DNA of 64,000 bases, from NCBI RefSeq assembly GCF_023518235.1, contig NZ_CP090423.1, positions 62,001 to 126,000 on the forward strand, read 5' to 3'. The notes beneath the pieces were generated by a model. That model did no database searches, was not told the origin of the DNA, and was given only the letters and a program-made list of their open reading frames with translations. Position numbers and translations under genes: made by a program. Position 1 is the stretch's first letter; each line of letters begins with the position of its first letter. This stretch comes from Stenotrophomonas maltophilia (GTDB lineage: Bacteria > Pseudomonadota > Gammaproteobacteria > Xanthomonadales > Xanthomonadaceae). Below, piece after piece: positions 52,185 to 62,923 of the stretch.

Positions 52185-52239
52185 TTTCGGGACCGCTGCC
52201 CCTTGCGCCGGCTCCGGCCGCATGCAAAGATTGCCGGCC

Positions 52240-52341
52240 ATGAAGCTCACCGACTTCCAGCACGACAGCAGCGCAGCCCGACAGGCGTCGGGCATGACCT
52301 CGCGTGCGCGTCGACCGGAACCCCACATTCTCGCTGGGTAA
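52240..52341 (+). CDS. Predicted leader peptide of the arginine operon
   Basis: A 33-codon frame from ATG 52240, or 15 codons if ATG 52294 is used. It ends SRARRPEPHILAG, with Arg codons at 52303, 52309 and 52312. The stop (52339-52341) overlaps the antiterminator arm. A GCCCGAC/GTCGGGC hairpin (52276-52293) lies just before the second ATG. No strong ribosome binding site is seen. It is followed by a strong terminator and then argF', the layout of an amino-acid attenuator. The peptide as such has no predicted function. Confidence 0.5.
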   Translation: MKLTDFQHDSSAARQASGMTSRARRPEPHILAG

Positions 52342-52396
52342 CCGGAGCTTTTTGCTGTTCGTCCGAAAAAAACCCAGCCCGCCGGCTGGGTTTTTT
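52333..52396 (+). promoter_or_regulatory. Arginine-operon attenuator (antiterminator/terminator switch)
   Basis: Terminator stem AAAAAACCCAGCC/GGCTGGGTTTTTT (52367-52379, 52384-52396) with loop CGCC. The segment GCTGGGT at 52333-52339 can instead pair perfectly with ACCCAGC (52372-52378) and prevent the terminator. It lies 19-30 nt after the Arg codons of the leader frame. The gap from 52185 to 52503 holds nothing else recognisable. Confidence 0.65.
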
Positions 52397-52503
52397 CGTT
52401 TACGCGTTCTGAAAGCTGCAACTGCAACCTTTTCGATCCACCTTTGGTTCCTGCTTTTCCCTTCCACCGCGCCGGACCCGGCGCCGCTACGCAAGGAAAA
52501 CCG

Positions 52504-53514
52504 ATGTCCCCCAAGCACTTCCTGAACACCCAGGACTGGAGCCGCAGTGATCTCGACGCGCTGCTGACCCAGGCCGCGCTGTTCAAGCGCAACAAGCTCG
52601 GCGACCAGCTCAAGGGCAAGTCGATCGCGCTGGTGTTCTTCAACCCGTCCATGCGCACCCGCACCAGCTTCGAGCTGGGGGCGTTCCAGCTCGGTGCCCA
52701 CGCGGTGGTGCTGCAGCCGGGCAAGGATGCGTGGCCGATCGAGTTCAATCTCGGCACGGTGATGGATGGCGATACCGAAGAACACATCGCTGAGGTGGCC
52801 AAGGTGCTGGGCCGTTACTGCGACATCATTGCGGTGCGTGCGTTCCCGAAGTTCCAGGATTGGGCCTACGACCGCCAGGATGTGGTCCTGCAGAGTTTCG
52901 CCAGGTACTCGCCGGTACCGGTCATCAACATGGAGACCATCACCCATCCGTGCCAGGAGCTGGCCCACATCATGGCCCTGCAGGAGCACTTCGGCACCCA
53001 GGACCTGCGTGGCAAGAAGTACGTGCTGACCTGGACCTACCACCCCAAGCCGCTGAATACCGCCGTGGCCAACTCGGCGCTGACCATCGCCACCCGCATG
53101 GGCATGGACGTGACCCTGCTGTGCCCGACCGCCGACTACATCCTCGACGACCGCTACATGGGCTGGGCCGAGCAGAACGTGGCCGAGAGCGGCGGTTCGC
53201 TGAAGATCAGCCATGACATCGACAGCGCCTACGCTGGTGCCGATGTGGTCTACGCCAAGAGCTGGGGCGCGCTGCCGTTCTTCGGCAACTGGGAGCCGGA
53301 AAAGCCGATCCGCGACCAGTTCAAGCACTTCATCGTGGACGAGCGGAAGATGGCGCTGACCAACAACGGCGTGTTCAGCCACTGCCTGCCGCTGCGCCGC
53401 AACGTGAAGGCTACCGACGGCGTGATGGATTCGCCGCAGTGCATTGCCATCAACGAAGCCGAGAACCGACTGCACGTGCAGAAGGCGATCATGGCCGCCG
53501 TTGCCGGGCGCTGA
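52504..53514 (+). CDS. argF': N-acetylornithine carbamoyltransferase
   Basis: 336 residues from ATG 52504, with AAGGAAAA upstream. It is a transcarbamoylase with phosphate-binding SMRTRTSFE (about 49), HPCQ (148-151) and HCLP (293-296). Glu92 and Lys302 match the residues known from the Xanthomonas campestris enzyme (substrate discrimination and carbamylated lysine), so acetylornithine rather than ornithine is the acceptor. It makes N-acetylcitrulline and is the first structural gene of the operon. Confidence 0.96.
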   Translation: MSPKHFLNTQDWSRSDLDALLTQAALFKRNKLGDQLKGKSIALVFFNPSMRTRTSFELGAFQLGAHAVVLQPGKDAWPIEFNLGTVMDGDTEEHIAEVAKVLGRYCDIIAVRAFPKFQDWAYDRQDVVLQSFARYSPVPVINMETITHPCQELAHIMALQEHFGTQDLRGKKYVLTWTYHPKPLNTAVANSALTIATRMGMDVTLLCPTADYILDDRYMGWAEQNVAESGGSLKISHDIDSAYAGADVVYAKSWGALPFFGNWEPEKPIRDQFKHFIVDERKMALTNNGVFSHCLPLRRNVKATDGVMDSPQCIAINEAENRLHVQKAIMAAVAGR

Positions 53515-53537: not shown

Positions 53538-53559
53538 CCGGGCATGGCCCGGCGCTACC
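53538..53559. repeat. GTAG-type palindrome (SMAG-like)
   Basis: Reverse GCCGGGC/GCCCGGC element ending in CTAC, in the argF'-argG gap. Confidence 0.7.
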
Positions 53560-53582
53560 CCACCCGATTGGACATTACCCCC

Positions 53583-54776
53583 ATGAGCAACAAAGACGTC
53601 GTTCTCGCCTTCTCCGGCGGCCTGGATACCAGCTTCTGCGTGCCGTACCTGCAGGAGCGCGGCTGCAACGTGCACACCGTGTTCGCCGATACCGGCGGCG
53701 TGGATGATGAAGAGCGCGATTTCATCGAAAAGCGTGCCGCCGAGCTGGGCGTCACCAGCCATGTGACCGTCAATGGCGGCCCGGCCATCTGGGAAGGCTT
53801 CGTCAAGCCGTTCGTGTGGGCCGGCGAAGGCTACCAGGGCCAGTACCCGCTGCTGGTGTCCGACCGCTACCTGATCGTCGATGCCGCGCTGAAGCGTGCC
53901 GCCGAACTGGGCACCAACATCATCGCCCACGGCTGCACCGGCATGGGCAACGACCAGGTCCGCTTCGACCTGGCGGTGAAGGCGCTGGGCGACTACCAGA
54001 TCATCGCGCCGATCCGCGAGATCCAGAAGGAACATACCCAGACCCGCGCCTACGAGCAGAAGTACCTGGAAGAGCGCGGCTTCGGCGTGCGCGCCAAGCA
54101 GCAGGCCTACACCATCAACGAGAACCTGCTGGGCGTGACCATGTCCGGCGGCGAGATCGACCGTTGGGAAGCGCCGGGCGAAGGCGCGCGTGGCTGGTGC
54201 TCGCCGCGCAGCGAGTGGCCGGAACAGGCGCTGACGGTCTCCCTGAAGTTCGTCGAAGGCGAAGCGGTTGAACTGAACGGCAAGGCGCTGCCGGGCGACC
54301 AGATCCTGGCCCAGCTCAACAAGCTGTTCGCCCCGTATGGCGTTGGCCGCGGCGTGTACACCGGCGACACCGTGATCGGCCTGAAGGGCCGCATCGTATT
54401 CGAGGCCCCGGGCCTGGTCTCGCTGCTGGCCGCACACCGCGCGCTGGAAGACGCCGTGCTGACCAAGCAGCAGAACCGCTTCAAGCCGGACGTGGCGCGC
54501 AAGTGGGTGGAGCTGGTGTACGAAGGCTTCTACCACGACCCGTTGAAGACCGACATCGAAGCGTTCCTGAAGTCCTCGCAGGCCAAGGTGAACGGCGAGG
54601 TGGTACTGGAAACCCGTGGTGGCCGCGTCGATGCAGTGGCGGTGAAGTCGCCGCACCTGCTCAACACCAAGGGTGCCACCTACGCGCAGTCGGCCGACTG
54701 GGGTGTGGAAGAGGCGGAGGGCTTCATCAAGCTGTTCGGCATGAGCTCGACGCTTTACGCGCAAGTCAACCGCTGA
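53583..54776 (+). CDS. argG: Argininosuccinate synthase
   Basis: 397 residues from ATG 53583. ATP-pyrophosphatase loop [16 protein letters not shown] at the N-terminus, [14 protein letters not shown] and the C-terminal synthase segments. It condenses citrulline and aspartate. The sequence reads as the shorter bacterial type with [17 protein letters not shown]. It is second in the operon; a SMAG-like palindrome lies on either side. Confidence 0.96.
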
Positions 54777-54819
54777 GCGGTTGACCACGCATTCCGCCTT
54801 AACCCTGCGCCGTTGGCGC

Positions 54820-54842
54820 GCCCCCTTCAACAAGAAGGGGGC
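54820..54842 (+). terminator. Intercistronic hairpin after argG
   Basis: GCCCCCTTC and GAAGGGGGC pair perfectly around AACAA. It lacks a T run and may be an mRNA stabiliser. Confidence 0.45.
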
Positions 54843-54862
54843 TCTCCACCAGACGCATTACG

Positions 54863-54886
54863 GTAGCGCCGGGCCATGCCCGGCGG
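54863..54886. repeat. GTAG-type palindrome (SMAG-like)
   Basis: GTAGCGCCGGGCCATGCCCG type element, 23 bp before argE'. Confidence 0.72.
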
Positions 54887-54908
54887 AACTCCACAGGATC
54901 TTTGATTC

Positions 54909-55997
54909 ATGCTTGAACAGACGCTCTCGCATCTGCAGGCCCTGGTGTCCTTCGACACCCGCAACCCGCCGCGTGCGATCACCACCGGTGGGATCTTCGA
55001 TTACCTGCGCGACAACCTGCCCGGGTTCAACCTCGAGGTGATCGACCATGGTGCCGGTGCGGTCAGCCTGTACGCCGTGCGCGGTACGCCGAAGTACCTG
55101 TTCAACGTGCACCTGGACACGGTGCCGGACTCGCCGCACTGGAGTGCCGACCCGCACGTGATGCGGCGCCTGGATGACCGCGTGGTCGGCCTCGGCGTGT
55201 GCGACATCAAGGGCGCGGCCGCTGCACTGGTGGCTGCGGCCAATGCCAGCGATGGTGATGCCGCGTTCCTGTTCTCCAGCGACGAGGAAGCCAACGATCC
55301 GCGCTGCATTGCCGCGTTCCTGGCCCGCGGCATTCCGTACGAAGCGGTGCTGGTGGCTGAGCCGACCATGAGTGAAGCGGTGCTGGCGCACCGTGGCATC
55401 AGCTCGGTGCTGATGCAGTTCGTCGGCCGTGCCGGGCATGCCTCCGGCAAGCAGGATGCCGCCGCCAGCGCGCTGCACCAGGCCATGCGCTGGGGCAACC
55501 GCGCCCTGGACCATGTGGAATCGCTGGCTTCGGCGCGCTTTGGCGGGCTGACCGGCCTGCGCTTCAACATCGGTCGCGTGGAAGGTGGCATCAAGGCCAA
55601 CATGATCGCGCCGGCCGCCGAAGTGCGCTTCGGTTTCCGCCCGCTGCCGTCGATGGATATCGACGCGTTGCTGGCGACCTTTGCAGGTTTCGCCGAACCG
55701 CAGGCAGCCCTGTTCACCGAAACCTTCCGTGGCCCGAGCCTGCCGGCCGGTGACATCGCCGAGGCCGAGAACCGTCGCCTGCTGGCGCGCGACGTGGCCG
55801 ATGCGCTGGAGCTGCCGATCGGCAACGCGGTGGACTTCTGGACCGAAGCTTCGCTGTTCTCCGCTGCCGGTTACACCACGCTGGTGTTCGGCCCGGGCGA
55901 CATTGCCCAGGCCCATACCGCAGATGAGTTCGTGACGCTGGACCAGCTACAGCGCTACACCGACGCCGTACATCGCATCATCGCCGCCGGCGCCTGA
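54909..55997 (+). CDS. argE': N-acetylcitrulline deacetylase (ArgE/M20 family)
   Basis: 362 residues from ATG 54909. M20 metal motifs: [26 protein letters not shown] and SSDEEANDP. In xanthomonads with acetylornithine carbamoyltransferase, this enzyme removes acetate from acetylcitrulline; the operon context argues for that over acetylornithine. The dimerisation domain carries [16 protein letters not shown]. Confidence 0.92.
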
Positions 55998-56022
55998 TTC
56001 TTCCCTTTCCGACGAAAACGAA

Positions 56023-57351
56023 ATGTCTCCTGCCCTCCAGCCCCACCGCCAGACCCGCCAGACCATCGTGCGCCTGCTTTCCAGCATGGCCAGCGCGAAG
56101 GAGATCAGCCAGTACCTCAAGCGCTTCTCGCAGCTGGACGCCAAGCGCTTCGCCGTGGTCAAGGTCGGCGGCGCGGTGCTGCGCGACGATCTCGACGCGC
56201 TGACCTCGTCGCTGTCGTTCCTGCAGGAAGTCGGGCTGACCCCGATCGTGCTGCACGGCGCCGGCCCGCAGCTGGATGCCGAGCTGTCGGCGGCCGGCAT
56301 CGACAAGCAGACCGTCAACGGCCTGCGCGTGACCTCACCGGAAGCGCTGGCGATCGTGCGCCGGGTGTTCCAGCAGTCCAACCTGCGCCTGGTCGAGGCG
56401 CTGCAGCAGAACGGCGCGCGCGCCACTTCGATCACCGGTGGCGTGTTCGAGGCCGAGTACCTGGACGTGGATACCTACGGCCTGGTCGGCGAAGTGAAGA
56501 AGGTCAACCTGGCGCCGATCGAGGCCAGCCTGCGTGCCGGCTCGATCCCGGTCATCACCAGCCTGGGCGAGACCGCCGGCGGCCAGATCCTCAACGTCAA
56601 CGCCGACTTCGCCGCCAACGAGCTGGTACAGGAGCTGCAGCCGTACAAGATCATCTTCCTGACCGGCACCGGTGGCCTGCTGGATGAGGCGGGCAACGTG
56701 ATCGATTCGATCAACCTGTCCACCGAGTACGACCACCTGATCGCGCAGCCGTGGATCCACGGTGGCATGAAAGTGAAGATCGAACAGATCAAGGATCTGC
56801 TCGACCGGCTGCCGCTTGAATCGTCGGTGTCGATCACCCGGCCGGCCGACCTGGCCAAGGAACTGTTCACTCACAAGGGCTCGGGCACGCTGGTGCGCAA
56901 GGGCGAAAAAGTGCTGCGCGCCACCGCCTGGAACGAACTGGACCTGCCGCGTCTGAAGGGCCTGATCGAATCCAGTTTCGGCCGCACCCTGGTGCCGGAC
57001 TACTTCGAGAAGACCAGGCTGCTGCGCGCCTATGTCAGCGAGAATTACCGCACCGCGGTGATCCTCACCGACGAGGCCGAAGGCGTGTACCTGGACAAGT
57101 TCGCCGTGCTCGACGATGCACAGGGCGAAGGCCTGGGTCGCGCGGTCTGGAACGTGATGCTGGAGGAAACTCCGCAGCTGTTCTGGCGTTCGCGCCACGG
57201 CAACCCGATCAACCACTTCTACTACGCCGAATCCGATGGCTGCTACAAGCAGGACCACTGGAAGGTGTTCTGGTACGGCGCCGATGGCATCGACCGCATC
57301 CGTACCTATGTCGAACACTGCGCGCAGCGCGCCCCGAGCCTGCAGGGCTGA
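56023..57351 (+). CDS. argB: Bifunctional N-acetylglutamate kinase/synthase
   Basis: 442 residues from ATG 56023. The amino-acid kinase domain occupies about 35-285 ([37 protein letters not shown]). A GNAT acetyltransferase domain covers about 290-442 ([28 protein letters not shown]). This is the vertebrate-like fused NAGS/NAGK known from Xanthomonas. It performs the first two steps of the pathway, and its feedback inhibition by arginine is known for the family. Confidence 0.94.
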
Positions 57352-57354
57352 ACG

Positions 57355-57957
57355 ATGAACAACCCGGACGCCTGGAACCTGGTACCCACCCTGCGTGGTC
57401 AGCACGTGTCGTTGCAGCCGTTGCAGGATGAGCACGTGCCCGGCCTGCGTGCTGCGCTGGAAGGCAGCGGGCTGGACCAGCTCTGGTACACCCAGGTGCC
57501 GTCGCCGGAGCGCACCGAGGCCTATGTGCAGGCCGCGCTGCAGGCGCAGGCCGAAGGCAGGGTGCTGCCGTTCGTGATCCGTGATGCGGCCGGTGACATC
57601 GTCGGCAGCACCCGTTTCTACGATCTGGATGCCAGCGTGCCCAGACTCAGCCTCGGCTACACCTGGTACGCGCCGCGCGTGCAGCGCACCGGCGCCAACA
57701 CCGAAGCCAAGCTGCTGCTGCTGCAGCACGCCTTCGAGGTGCTGGGGTGCATCAGCGTGGTGCTGGAAACCAGCTGGTTCAACGCCACTTCGCGCACCGC
57801 CATCGCCCGCCTCGGCGCCAAGCAGGATGGCGTGCTGCGCAACCACAAGCGGCATGCCGACGGCACGCCGCGCGACACCGTCATCTTCTCCATCATCGAT
57901 GCGGAATGGCAGGGCGTGAAGCGCCACCTGCAGTTCCGCCTGGACAGTCACGCATGA
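57355..57957 (+). CDS. GNAT family N-acetyltransferase (RimJ/RimL-like)
   Basis: 200 residues from ATG 57355, 3 bp after argB; the stop overlaps argC (ATGA). Acetyl-CoA motif A is [22 protein letters not shown], and the early LRPLQ-like [12 protein letters not shown] and GSTRFYDLD match RimJ/RimL proteins. The target is unknown. Being sandwiched and coupled inside the arginine operon suggests a related job or simple hitch-hiking. Confidence 0.88.
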
Positions 57958-58907
57958 ACGATTCGACTTTCACCCTGGGCATCGTCGGTGCCCGCGGCCA
58001 TACCGGCGCCGAGCTGATCAAGCTGGTGGCCGCGCACCCGCGCCTGGAACTGGCCTTTGTGTCCTCGCGCGAGCGCGCCGGGCAGCGCCTGTCCGATCAC
58101 CATCCGGAATTCCAGGGGGACCTGCAGTATGAGAACCTGGACGCCGATGCCGTGGCGGCCAAGGGCGTGGATGCGGTGATCCTGGCCCTGCCCAATGGCC
58201 TGGCCGCCCCGTTCGTAGCCGCGCTGGAAGCGGCGAAGCCGGACACGGTCATCGTCGACCTGTCGGCCGATTACCGCTTCGACCACAGCTGGTATTACGG
58301 GCTGCCGGAACTGACCCGGGGCCGCTACAACGGCCAGAAGCACATCAGCAATCCGGGCTGCTATGCCACGGCGATGCAGCTGGCGGTGCACCCGCTGCTG
58401 GATCTGCTGGCCGGTCCGCCGCAGTGCTTTGGTGTGTCCGGTTACTCAGGCGCCGGCACCACGCCCTCGGACAAGAACAACGTTGAACTGCTGGCCGACA
58501 ACCTGATGCCGTATGCATTGACCAATCACGTGCATGAGCGCGAGGTGTCGGTGCGACTGGGCGTGGCCGTCGAGTTCATGCCGCACGTCGCGCCGCACTT
58601 CCGTGGCATCACGCTGACTGCGAACCTGTGGCTGAATCGCGCGCAGACCCGCGAGCAGATCGTCGAACGCTTCCAGCAGGCCTATGCCGGCGAACCGCTG
58701 ATCGAGGTGGTGGATGAAGCGCCGTGGGTCAGCCGCATCGCCGGTCGCCATGGCGCCCAGGTCGGTGGCTTCACCCTGGCCCCGGGCGGCAAACGGGTGG
58801 TGGTGGTGGCGACCCTGGACAACCTGCTCAAGGGCGCGGCCACCCAGGCCATGCAGAACCTCAATCTCGCGCTGGGCATCGACGAACTGACGTCGATCCC
58901 GCACTGA
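57954..58907 (+). CDS. argC: N-acetyl-gamma-glutamyl-phosphate reductase
   Basis: 317 residues from ATG 57954. NADP loop [18 protein letters not shown], catalytic cysteine in SNPGCYATA (about 140), [21 protein letters not shown] and the C-terminal [24 protein letters not shown]. It reduces acetylglutamyl phosphate in the pathway. Typical length for the family. Confidence 0.96.
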
Positions 58908-58927
58908 CCCCGCCTTCCGGAGCCCCC

Positions 58928-60223
58928 ATGGCAGACCTTCTTTGGCAGAAGCCCGGCGTCGCTGTCGACGCCCAGATCCAGACCTTCCTCGCTGGCGACG
59001 ACGTGATCCTCGACCGCGAGTTCTTCCTGCACGACATCGCCGCCAGCGCCGCGCATGCGCAGGGCCTGCAGCACATCGGCATCCTCAGTGCCGACGAGCT
59101 GGCTGGACTGCTGCGCGAACTGGAGGTGCTGGCGCAGGACTTCCGCGACGGCCGCTTCGTGCTGGACACGCGGTACGAAGATGGTCACTCGGCCATCGAA
59201 GCCCGCCTGACTGAACGCCTCGGCGATGCCGGCCGCAAGATCCACACTGGCCGCAGCCGCAACGACCAGATCCTGGTGGCCACCCGCCTGTGGCTGAAAG
59301 AGAAGCTGCAGCGCGTGGCGCAGGTCAGTACCGACGTGGCCAAGGTTGCACTGGACCGTGCGCAGGCCGAGAAGGATCTGCCGATTCCCGGCTATACCCA
59401 CATCCAGCGTGCTGTGGTGTCCTCGGCAGGCATGTGGTGGGCCGGCTGGGCCGAAGCCTTCATCGACAACGCCATCCGCGCGCGCGACACCCATGCACTG
59501 GTGGATGCCAACCCGCTCGGCACTGCCGCCGGCTACGGCGTGAATCTGCCGCTGGACCGTGAGCACACCACCGCCGCGCTCGGCTTCGCGCGCATGCAGA
59601 TCTCGCCGATCTATGCCCAGCTGTCGCGCGGCAAGTTCGAGCTGGCTGCGCTGGAAGCGCTCGGTGGTGCCACGCTGGACCTGCGCCGCATCGCCTGGGA
59701 CCTGTCGCTGTTCACCAGCGCCGAGTTCGGCTTTGTTGCGTTGCCGGCGCAGTACACCACCGGCAGCTCGATCATGCCCAACAAGCGCAACCCGGATGTG
59801 ATCGAGCTGATGCGTGCCACCCACGCCAGCGTGGCCGCCGCGCGTACCGAGATCGAACAGTTGCTGTCGCTGCCGTCGGGTTATCACCGTGACCTGCAGT
59901 CGTCCAAGGGCGCCATCTTCCACGGTTTCGGCCGTGGCCTGGCCGCGCTGGAGCTGCTGCCGGCGCTGCTGGCCAATCTGGAATGGCGCGATGACAAACT
60001 GCGCGCGGCGATCGACTCGGGCATGTATGCCACCGATGTGGCGGTGGAAGCGGCCGTGGCCGGTGTGCCGTTCCGCGAGGCCTACAAGGCCGCGGCGGCC
60101 GGTGCCGACAGTGCAGGGCAGGGACGCACGCCGGAGGGCAGTCTGGCCGCACGCGTGTCGCCGGGCTCGGCCGCCGATCTGCGCCTGGATGAACTGCGCG
60201 CACGCTGGCAGGCGCTGTCCTGA
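58928..60223 (+). CDS. argH: Argininosuccinate lyase
   Basis: 431 residues from ATG 58928. Fumarase-superfamily signature [16 protein letters not shown], with [17 protein letters not shown] and [13 protein letters not shown]. It splits argininosuccinate to arginine and fumarate, the last step. The stop overlaps the yciI-like start (TGATG). Shorter than the E. coli enzyme by about 25 residues but complete in motifs. Confidence 0.96.
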
Positions 60224-60486
60224 TGGCCGGCACCGTCTACCTGGTGCTGGCCATGCGTCGGCCTGATTTCAACGCGGCGGCCGTACAGCCGCACCGCGAC
60301 TTCCTTGATGCGTTGCAGGCGCAGGGCAAGCTGCAGCTGACCGGCGGCTTCGCCGATGGCAGTGGTGGCGCCTACGTGCTGTGCAACGTGGACAGCCTGG
60401 CGCAGGCGCAGGCCATCGTCGCCACCGATCCGCTGGTGACGATGCAGGCCTCCGACCTGACCGTGCACGAATGGAACACCCGCTGA
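60223..60486 (+). CDS. YciI-like protein
   Basis: 87 residues from ATG 60223. Ferredoxin-like YciI/YCII fold: VYLVLAMRRPDFNAAAVQPHRDFLDAL includes the His/Asp site, with GGFADGSGGAYVL. Biochemical role unknown. It is coupled to argH and followed 11 bp later by proB, so it is part of the supra-operon. Confidence 0.88.
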   Translation: MAGTVYLVLAMRRPDFNAAAVQPHRDFLDALQAQGKLQLTGGFADGSGGAYVLCNVDSLAQAQAIVATDPLVTMQASDLTVHEWNTR

Positions 60487-60497
60487 GGCCCTGACTG

Positions 60498-61655
60498 ATG
60501 ACCCTGCATGCCAGCCACGTCGCTTCGCCGTTCCCGGAACAGGCGCTGCCGCCGTGGCGGCGTGCGGTGCTGAAAGTGGGCAGCAGCCTGCTGGCCGCCG
60601 ATGGCGGTGGCCTGTCGCCGCGGCATGCGCTGGGCCTGGCCCAGTTTGTCTCGGCCAACGTGCTGGCCGGGCGCGAGGTGGTGATCGTATCGTCCGGCGC
60701 GGTAGCGGCCGGTCGCGCGATCCTGCCGCGCGCCGACGAGCCCGGCGCGGCGATGGCCGCACGCCAGGCCCTGGCAGCGCTGGGCCAGGCGCAGCTGATC
60801 GGGCTCTGGCAGCGCTTCTTCGAGCGCCCGGTGGCGCAGGTGCTGCTGACCCACGACGACCTGCGCAACCGCCGCCGCTATCTCAATGCACGCGCCACGC
60901 TCAGCGAGCTGCTGCGGCTGGGCGCGCTGCCGGTGGTCAACGAGAACGACACCGTGTCGGTGGACGAGCTCAAGCTCGGCGACAATGACAACCTGGCCGC
61001 GACGGTGGCCGCGATGGTCGATGCCGATGCGCTGTTCATCGCTACCGACATCGACGGGCTGTATAGCGCCGACCCGCGCAGCGTGGCTGACGCAAGGCCG
61101 CTGCACGATGTCGCAGAGCTGAGTGATGAGGTGCTGGCGATGGCCGGCGGCGCGGGCTCGCGCGCTGGTACCGGCGGCATGCGCACCAAGCTGGAGGCCG
61201 CGGCGAAGGCCGGTCGCCTCGGCATCGAAACCTATCTGTTCAACGGCCGCAGTGGCGAGGTGGTACGCGCGCTGGCACAGGATCGCCTGTTCGGTACCCG
61301 CATTCATGCCGCGCGCAGCCGCGAAGCGGCCCGCAAGCATTGGCTGCGCCACGCACCGCTGGCCGAAGGCGCGATCCTCATCGATGCCGGCGCGGCGCAG
61401 GCGATGCGCGAGAAGGGCGCCTCGCTGCTGCCCGGCGGCATCACCGGTGCCGAAGGGACGTTCCGCCGTGGCGACATGGTGCAGGTGTGCTGGGACGCAC
61501 CGCAGGGGCGGGTGTGCATCGCCCGTGGCGTCAGCCAGTACGCGGCCGATGACGTGCGCCGCATCGCAGGCCGCCATTCGCGCGACATCCAGGCCGTGCT
61601 CGGCTACAACTACGGTGGCAGCGTCGTCCATCGCGACGACCTGGTGCTGCCATGA
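60498..61655 (+). CDS. proB: Glutamate 5-kinase
   Basis: 385 residues from ATG 60498. Amino-acid kinase domain (about 20-270): [50 protein letters not shown]-terminal PUA domain (about 285-375) carries [24 protein letters not shown]. It phosphorylates glutamate for proline synthesis. The stop overlaps a proA start candidate. Confidence 0.96.
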
Positions 61656-61675
61656 CCGGTTTGAAGGACATCCCG

Positions 61676-62923
61676 ATGAGCGATATCCAAGCGCAGGCAC
61701 GTGCCTGCCGTGACGCGGCCCAGGTGGTTGCCGGCCTCGACAGTGATGCCCGGCGGGCGCTGCTGCTGGGCATGGCGCAGGCGCTGGAGGTGAACGCCGG
61801 GTTGATCCTGGCTGGCAACGCGCGCGATCTGGCGGCGGCGCGCGACAAGGGGGTGGGCAGTGCCATGCTCGATCGCCTGGCACTGGACCCGCCGCGCCTG
61901 TTGGCGATGGCCGAAGCGGTGCGCGAAGTGGCGGGGCTGCCCGATCCGGTCGGCCAGGTGACCCGCGACGACGTGCGCCCGAACGGCATCCGCGTGCAGA
62001 AGGTGCGCGTGCCACTGGGCGTGATCGCGATGATCTACGAGGCGCGCCCGAACGTGACCGCAGAAGCGGCGGCGCTGTGCCTGAAGGCCGGCAATGGCGT
62101 GATCCTGCGCGGCGGTTCCGAAGCGATCCATTCCAACACCGCCATTGCCCAGGCGCTGGCCGGTGCCTTGCAGGCCCATGGCGTACCGCCGGCCGCGGTG
62201 ACCGTGCTGACCGACCTGCGCCGCGAAGCCATGCTGGAGCTGCTGCAGCTGCACGAACTGATCGATCTGGCGATTCCGCGCGGCGGCGAAGGCCTGATCC
62301 GTTTCGTTGCCGAGCATGCGCGGGTGCCGGTGATCAAGCACTACAAGGGCGTCTGCCACCTGTTCGTCGATGCCAGTGCCGACCTCGGCAAGGCCGTTGA
62401 CCTGCTGGTGGATGGCAAGTGCAGCCGGCCGGCGGCCTGCAATTCGCTGGAGACGTTGCTGGTGCACCGAGATGTGGCCGAAGCGTTCCTGCCGCACGTG
62501 GCGCAGGCGCTCGGCGAGCGTGGCGTGCAGCTGCGTGCCGATGCGGATGCGCACCCCCTGTTGCCGGGTAGCACGCTGGCCACCGAAGACGACTACGCTG
62601 CCGAGTTCCTTGATCTGGTGCTGGCGGTGCGCGTGGTCGACGATCTGGATGCGGCCATCGCGCACATCCGGACCTACACCTCCGACCATACCGAAGTGAT
62701 CGCGACCGAAGACAGCGGCAATGCCGAGCGCTTCGTCAATGCGCTGCGCTCGGCGGTGGTGATGGTCAATGCGTCCTCGCGCTTCTCCGATGGTGGCCAG
62801 CTGGGGCTGGGCAGCGAGATCGGCATATCCACCACGCGCCTGCATGCGTACGGGCCGATGGGGCTGGAAGCGCTCACCGTCGAACGCTTCGTGGTGCGTG
62901 GCGAAGGGCAGACCCGCCGCTGA
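61676..62923 (+). CDS. proA: Gamma-glutamyl phosphate reductase
   Basis: 415 residues from ATG 61676, chosen for AAGGACA 8 bp upstream. An ATG at 61652 overlapping the proB stop would add eight residues. Aldehyde dehydrogenase fold with the catalytic cysteine in [15 protein letters not shown], plus [21 protein letters not shown] and [20 protein letters not shown]. It makes glutamate semialdehyde. Last gene of the block. Confidence 0.95.

Follow-up and report, generated by a model that had tools for sequence, protein, structure and literature searches.

A predicted ribosome-mediated arginine attenuator upstream of argF′ in Stenotrophomonas maltophilia overlaps the Xoo5 RNA family

Results

The window analyzed here is a 64,000-nt stretch of S. 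maltophilia DNA, and all features described below are on its + strand. A leader of approximately 159 nt (52238-52396) lies directly 5′ of argF′ (52504..53514), which encodes N-acetylornithine carbamoyltransferase and is the first gene under the predicted control, and of the rest of a presumed arginine-proline operon (53544..62923) comprising argG, argE′, an argB/A fusion, a GNAT protein gene, argC, argH, proB and proA. The gene names were assigned from the list of open reading frames and by recognition of the translations. Within the leader we predicted a leaderless ORF of 33 aa (52240..52341), running from an ATG at 52240 to a TAA at 52339-52341 and translated as MKLTDFQHDSSAARQASGMTSRARRPEPHILAG, in which the family core AxMA(A/S)GMTSRARR takes the form ARQASGMTSRARR. 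Its Arg codons, CGT at 52303, CGT at 52309 and CGA at 52312, are part of the putative control codons CGT GCG CGT CGA (Arg-Ala-Arg-Arg, 52303..52314), of which the CGA is nearly invariant. The ORF also contains a hairpin (GCCCGAC-AGGC-GTCGGGC, 52276..52293) that is a possible RNA polymerase pause hairpin, and the control codons are followed by the 1:2 hairpin (52315..52345), with its left arm CCGGAACCC at 52315-52323 and its right arm GGGTAACCGG at 52336-52345. Region 2, GCUGGGU (52333..52339), overlaps the stop codon, while region 3, ACCCAGC (52372..52378), can pair either with region 2, giving an antiterminator, or with region 4. The leader closes with an intrinsic terminator of 13 contiguous base pairs and a U tail (52367..52396; AAAAAACCCAGCC / CGCC / GGCTGGGTTTTTT). 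An earlier note on this DNA had reported an Arg-rich frame, a GCTGGGT at its stop codon and a 13-bp T-tailed terminator, and all three are present where it placed them. Its suggestion that a 15-aa frame from the in-frame inner ATG at 52294 could be an alternative did not hold up: the conserved frame is the one of 33 aa, in which positions ahead of the inner Met are maintained too. The conserved frame and these upstream residues rule out the inner ATG as sole start.

A promoter was predicted at 52203..52231, with a -35 element TTGCGC (52203-52208) and a -10-like element AAAGAT (52226-52231). In 133 of 142 family leaders a TTG is located 35-39 nt ahead of the start. Because a sigma-70 consensus scan found no promoter, this call is based on conservation and on a mapped 5′ end, which comes from the Xoo5 RNA. 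Rfam family RF02242 (Xoo5) matches the leader at 52238..52361 over the whole model (1-124 of 124), with a score of 103.6 bits (E 7e-22) vs. a gathering cut-off of 50. Xoo5 was one of eight sRNAs cloned from X. oryzae PXO99 in 2011; its 5′ end was determined by RACE, its length is 124 nt, and Northern blots gave bands of ~130 and ~100 nt, the longer of which disappears late in growth (PMC3039613). The word arginine is absent from the main text of that paper. Its Table 2 gives PXO_00353 as the gene 3′ of Xoo5, and its Table 4, which concerns the mutant of another sRNA, lists PXO_00353 as N-acetylornithine carbamoyltransferase and PXO_00352 as argininosuccinate synthase (PMC3039613). Since PXO_00353 corresponds to the argF′ product, Xoo5 is immediately upstream of argF′ in X. 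oryzae too.

As the Rfam model and the RACE-defined RNA have the same length, the Xoo5 5′ end can be placed, through the model, at 52238, only 2 nt before the ATG. This suggests that the leader mRNA is practically leaderless, with its AUG 2 nt from the 5′ end. The earlier note had made its reading depend on a transcript that starts upstream of 52240, and the X. oryzae 5′ end does map there, at 52238, under this presumed correspondence. The published Xoo5 RNA would then represent the terminated or processed leader of the argF′ attenuator. The cloned RNA, at 124 nt vs. the predicted 159 nt, ends ~35 nt before the terminator end, and because this length and the ~130- and ~100-nt bands fall short of 52396, RNA processing has to be assumed. 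In the same set, deletion mutants made for seven of the eight sRNAs showed no obvious phenotype, and sRNA-Xoo1 precedes thiC, where a riboswitch had been annotated earlier (PMC3039613). Other sRNAs of this set may be cis leaders as well.

We found RF02242 in 108 of 149 genomes of the family at E<=1e-3, with 59 above the cut-off, and the loci fetched from 90 of those 108 genomes had argF′ downstream in all 90 cases. To avoid circularity, a second sampling started from the ArgF′ protein, which had a strong match in 144 of the 149 family genomes, only a weak match in four and none in one. A leader ORF with MTSRARR was present upstream of ArgF′ in 143 of the 144 genomes with a strong match; in the sole exception (L289) a contig end cuts the leader, and the terminator is still visible. 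Genomes that keep argF′ and have lost the Arg codons, which the earlier note had named as evidence against its proposal, numbered 0 among the 143 testable family genomes.

Of 250 genomes sampled across the order, 114 contained a single copy of a DNA pattern that encodes GMTSRAR and extends two bases into the Arg codon that follows. By family, it occurred in 53 of 54 genomes of the family to which the window belongs, 3 of 3 in f2, 7 of 10 in f3, 51 of 51 in f12 (which, judging from the names of its records, appears to be Rhodanobacteraceae) and none in f4-f11, and a backwards-control search of the pattern over the 250 order genomes returned 0 hits. The single miss within the own family (L020) has Ser replacing Gly. 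In the class, 4 of 321 genomes carried the pattern, all four of them from the own family. Origin of the motif by chance is ruled out by its once-per-genome occurrence, the 0 backwards-control hits and its restriction to certain families. In a scan of named genomes, Stenotrophomonas, Xanthomonas, Pseudoxanthomonas, Lysobacter, Luteimonas, Dyella, Rhodanobacter, Frateuria, Dokdonella and Tahibacter were among the matches listed (80 of 120). One of the 120 loci, L131, is a chance match in a coding region of a MAG labelled Deltaproteobacteria; it is still counted in the 259-row codon table and was excluded from later counts. The pattern-found loci L091-L240 lie before argF′ in 144 of 150 cases, the others being five cut ends and one false hit. 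These loci were selected by the motif, and invariance counts were therefore taken from the ArgF′-ascertained family set (n=143).

Several individual loci are of note. In L065 (G022), argF′ starts ~410 nt after the leader inner Met, whereas the median distance for L091-L240 is 169 nt. L265 (G034:C1:294166-294816), from a 2.3-Mb genome, keeps SRARR with CGA-CGG and has its stop well beyond region 2, and its attenuator looks derived or decaying. The peptides of L091-L097 (family f3) end 1-4 codons past RARR, with region 2 downstream of the stop, and in L093 and L094 the CGA is found one codon further on (CGC CGT CGA).

We analyzed the conservation of the leader peptide in the family set, numbering residues relative to the inner Met. 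A-6, A-3, M0, T1, S2, R3, A4, R5 and R6 were present in 143 of 143 leaders and G-1 in 141, the residue after R6 was Pro in 119, and residues before -8 and after +7 were variable. The third bases of most core codons vary, as at Gly -1 (GGC 97, GGG 32, GGA 8, GGT 4) and Thr +1 (ACC 111, ACG 19, ACT 11, ACA 2); Ala -6 departs from this (GCC 139), and the third base is also fixed at Ser (TCG 137/143) and at the last Arg (CGA 141/143). When the operon genes of the window other than argH were counted (eight genes), only 4 of 197 Arg codons were CGA. An in-frame start was found 45-66 nt before the inner Met in all 142 testable family leaders (ATG in 140, GTG in 2), and of the ATGs from -69 to -42, 154 were in frame, with 31 and 15 in the two alternative frames. 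The stop type varied among 216 leaders (TAG 105, TAA 83, TGA 28). Judged from these comparisons, the core AxMA(A/S)GMTSRARR is under selection at the peptide level, because the start keeps to the frame, wobble positions vary and all three stops are used. Histidine leaders (RF00514), used as a control for peptide conservation, were found in 0 of 40 family genomes, and in the class there were 4 in 185, all below the cut-off, with plausible His runs in two of the four. Any special status of the leader-peptide conservation would thus stand on its pattern alone.

Two explanations of the control region were tried and rejected. The CGA is not kept only for RNA pairing of its A, since it is still present in 100 of 102 family leaders whose local fold leaves that A unpaired; nor is proline the likely signal, in spite of proBA in the operon, as Pro follows RARR in no more than those 119 of 143 leaders. 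The tRNA-Arg genes found have the anticodons ACG (three genes), CCG, CCT and TCT, with no TCG, so that CGC, CGU and CGA, and with them all three control codons, would be read by one tRNA. CGA-CCG is an inhibitory codon pair in yeast. The R-A-R at 52303-52314 resembles the Arg-X-Arg motif that stalls ribosomes carrying a macrolide, and the arg operon might therefore respond to macrolides as a side effect. In the Salmonella his attenuator, CGA was decoded poorly relative to CGU and CGC (PMC4046918). By contrast, the speF leader of Salmonella responds to arginine equally well whether its codons are the rare CGA-CGA or the frequent CGC-CGC, a result that speaks against a need for rare codons (PMC6386406).

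The terminator was present in 255 of 258 leaders, the other three being cut by locus ends. Of 1275 dinucleotide shuffles, 147 yielded any terminator hit at all and 0 yielded one that scored as high as the real terminator. Within the 7-bp 2:3 helix, only one pair varied on both sides among 216 leaders (T-A 127, C-G 62, T-G 18, C-A 8, G-G 1), being Watson-Crick in 189, G-U in 18 and mismatched in 9, whereas shuffles gave a mean of 117 and a maximum of 144 Watson-Crick pairs with kinship ignored. This pair table includes leaders with GGG directly before the stop, 38 without it and one without CCC[AG]G having been left out. When the varying pair was placed on an ArgF′ tree of 170 of the 216 loci, those with a near-complete argF′, we counted 12 state changes, of which two were double and six were TA to TG; the remaining changes occurred once each (TA to CA, CG to TG, TG to TA, TG to GG). 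Independent compensatory changes at 2:3 are therefore few, and most changes on one side alone preserve a wobble pair. All 255 leaders, including those left out of the pair table, have a 2:3 duplex at least as stable as -8.4 kcal/mol; at most 5% of 20 shuffles were as good in 199 of the 255, and more than 5% in 56. The earlier note had asked whether complementarity between GCTGGGT and ACCCAGC is lost in relatives, and these counts indicate that it is retained (189/216 Watson-Crick, duplex 255/255), with mismatches in 9 of 216.

For 1:2, own arms gave -12.85 vs. -11.52 kcal/mol for swapped arms (216 sequences, kinship ignored), with pairing types that include CCGG/CCGG and ACCGUA/GACGGU; this helix is weak in part of the set, the probability that region 2 pairs upstream having a mean of 0.46 and a median of 0.32. 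For the in-ORF hairpin the corresponding values were -9.22 with own arms and -8.68 kcal/mol with species-swapped arms (range -8.90 to -8.45, n=257, kinship ignored). The antiterminator (2:3), 1:2 and in-ORF hairpin helices covary. Where the stop was not preceded by GGG, a region 2 core was found near the stop in 35 of 39 leaders with a loose regex, and because region 2 is often in another frame where the stop has moved, this suggests that it is kept as RNA and not as peptide. The minimum energy of the whole leader was slightly below that of shuffles (z -1.92). We simulated folding in 239 of the 255 leaders with region 4 omitted and the ribosome footprint masked. The mean probability of 2:3 was 0.52 without a ribosome and 0.90-0.97 with a ribosome on the Arg codons or on the one that follows them; it was 0 in the stop state because the stop itself is masked. 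As 2:3 and 1:2 are about equal without a ribosome, 1:2 appears to be a weak guard.

A search of the own genome for ArgR, in which 9 of 14 controls were positive, did not find it. In the order, ArgR was found in 8 of 250 genomes, all in family f11 (8 of its 9), and not in the other 242. The leader pattern occurred in 0 of the 9 f11 genomes, and in families f4-f10 neither the leader pattern nor ArgR was found. Mutual exclusion of ArgR and the leader is suggestive only, and because f4-f10 show neither of the two, the leader is not a general ArgR substitute.

Discussion

We propose that the leader at 52238-52396 is a ribosome-mediated transcription attenuator that senses arginine before argF′, and we assign this reading a probability of roughly 0.88. 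The attenuation put forward in the earlier note is supported by conservation, covariation and the terminator, and we infer that arginine is the controlling signal. To what the note described, the analysis adds the identity with the Xoo5 family, a covarying 1:2 helix, the practically leaderless mRNA and the conservation of the peptide. Transcription would start ~2 nt before the AUG, and because the AUG sits at the 5′ end, a 70S ribosome could load early, once the 5′ end emerges. When Arg-tRNA(ICG) is scarce, the ribosome would pause within CGU-GCG-CGU-CGA and hide the left arm of 1:2, so that region 2 (GCUGGGU) could pair with region 3 (ACCCAGC), the terminator would be blocked, and argF′-argG-argE′-argB/A-argC-argH-proBA would be transcribed. 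When arginine is plentiful, the ribosome would reach the stop inside region 2 and cover that region, the terminator at 52367-52396 would stop transcription, and the short RNA would be processed to the cloned Xoo5. The conserved peptide core probably slows the ribosome at R-A-R-R. The 5′-terminal AUG, by allowing an early ribosome start, may replace the pausing of trp and his leaders, and pausing may occur at the hairpin inside the ORF.

Alternatively, the leader may be an arrest-peptide sensor, in which AxMA(A/S)GMTSRARR stalls in the exit tunnel and operates the same RNA switch, the stall being triggered by arginine, ornithine or a related metabolite, or being intrinsic until Arg-tRNA arrives. 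This is compatible with attenuation, and both could hold. The pattern of conservation is what one would expect of such a peptide: core residues are present in 143 of 143 leaders (G-1 in 141) while most third positions vary, conservation falls after R6, and G, M, T, S and A would be superfluous for mere codon counting. However, three leader peptides matched no Pfam family and hence have no tie to the DUF2618 of SpeFL/ORF34, the proposed peptide is without known ligand or arrest, and the covarying in-ORF hairpin may explain part of the upstream conservation at the RNA level. Arginine itself is an unlikely stall inducer, because a biosynthetic operon needs the stall at low arginine, and the histidine leaders are too few to tell how conserved an ordinary leader peptide is. 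On balance we regard the arrest-peptide sensor as unlikely, if far from negligible. Somewhat more broadly, and as a tentative proposal that we hold with less than even confidence, the core could define a new arrest-peptide class that slows the ribosome in the exit tunnel while a single inosine-bearing tRNA decodes CGY-GCN-CGY-CGA. The leaderless mRNA would then carry a very sensitive gauge of arginine, which in Xanthomonadaceae, Rhodanobacteraceae and two other families would take over from the missing arginine repressor.

Xoo5 could be a trans-acting sRNA that is next to argF′ by coincidence or serves there in an additional role, as its short Northern species, its growth-phase change and the judgment that it is likely Hfq-independent would suggest (PMC3039613), and trans-acting leader RNAs have been proposed elsewhere, e.g., the carA leader of P. 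syringae (PMC4997734). We consider this very improbable: every intact locus examined precedes argF′, the frame is conserved with wobble variation, the terminator and region 3 are conserved even though they lie beyond the 124-nt RNA, and Xoo1, the annotated riboswitch before thiC, was likewise listed as an sRNA (PMC3039613). Strong sequence conservation and alternative pairings 5′ of a terminator would also fit a metabolite-binding arginine riboswitch with an incidental ORF, but third-base variation, in-frame starts 45-66 nt away and changes of stop type with stop function kept leave this explanation with very little credit. An ordinary, unregulated leader whose terminator acts constitutively would fit the outcome that no regulatory response of this leader, to arginine or otherwise, was found in the literature searched; it is the hardest to believe, given mutually exclusive pairings and invariant control codons conserved over four families.

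If attenuation is correct, a curated RNA family, Xoo5, is explained as the cis attenuator of argF′. The leader is real and widespread, was misfiled until now, and very probably acts as an arginine attenuator. It offers a possible answer to how arginine synthesis is controlled in a large bacterial group that gave no ArgR match and includes crop pathogens and soil bacteria, and arginine would join the amino acids whose own biosynthetic operon has ribosome-mediated attenuation. A full-text literature search, with most subscription papers outside its scope, found no ribosome-mediated attenuator of an arginine biosynthetic operon; the nearest cases found in print were the speF (PMC6386406) and carAB (PMC4997734) leaders. 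More than 250 natural leaders vary codon choice, peptide and RNA helices separately, which makes peptide action of attenuator peptides directly testable, and the conserved core may prove to be an arrest peptide.

Ribosome-mediated transcription attenuators of the his/trp type form a class. The leader described here shares with them a short ORF that carries codons for the end product, 1:2, 2:3 and 3:4 pairings that exclude one another, an intrinsic terminator and a biosynthetic operon. It differs in that the amino acid would be arginine, the AUG is predicted at the 5′ end, R-A-R-R with a fixed rare CGA takes the place of a long run, and the core is conserved at the amino-acid level. RF02242 represents the same element, although the model spans 52238-52361 and stops before the terminator, and in its original description Xoo5 was presented as an sRNA, with no leader ORF, terminator or arginine link given for it in the passages and tables examined (PMC3039613). 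ORF34/SpeFL of Salmonella speF is likewise a conserved peptide (34 aa there) with consecutive Arg codons, in which pausing at low arginine alters the RNA fold, as we propose here, and the stop position matters (PMC6386406). In contrast, it controls ornithine decarboxylase through Rho, masking of the ribosome-binding site and RNase G, its codons are AGG-CGG, and no intrinsic terminator is involved (PMC6386406); for three of our leader peptides, no Pfam family, including the SpeFL/ORF34 domain (DUF2618, PF10940), was matched at E<=10 under the HMMER filters. The Pseudomonas carAB leader also precedes a gene of arginine and pyrimidine synthesis, with a leader peptide in P. aeruginosa and a small RNA, P32, in P. 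syringae that its authors ascribed to transcription attenuation (PMC4997734). There, however, attenuation is tied to pyrimidines, whereas the effect of arginine is transcriptional, with ArgR discussed, and in DC3000 a small peptide could not be assigned a start codon by the authors (PMC4997734). The polycysteine ORFs of mycobacterial cys operons are leaderless and have control codons that match their operon (Canestrari 2020, cited in PMC13236596), but they are presented as a case of translation attenuation, concern cysteine and belong to Actinobacteria (PMC13236596), whereas the leader here is predicted to switch an intrinsic terminator. Finally, uORFC-8-2 of Rhodobacterales cysS is, like our leader, an attenuator predicted by comparison, with two conserved control codons, a stem and a U tail, and differs in its amino acid (cysteine), its gene (a tRNA synthetase) and its occurrence in alphaproteobacteria (PMC8632094).
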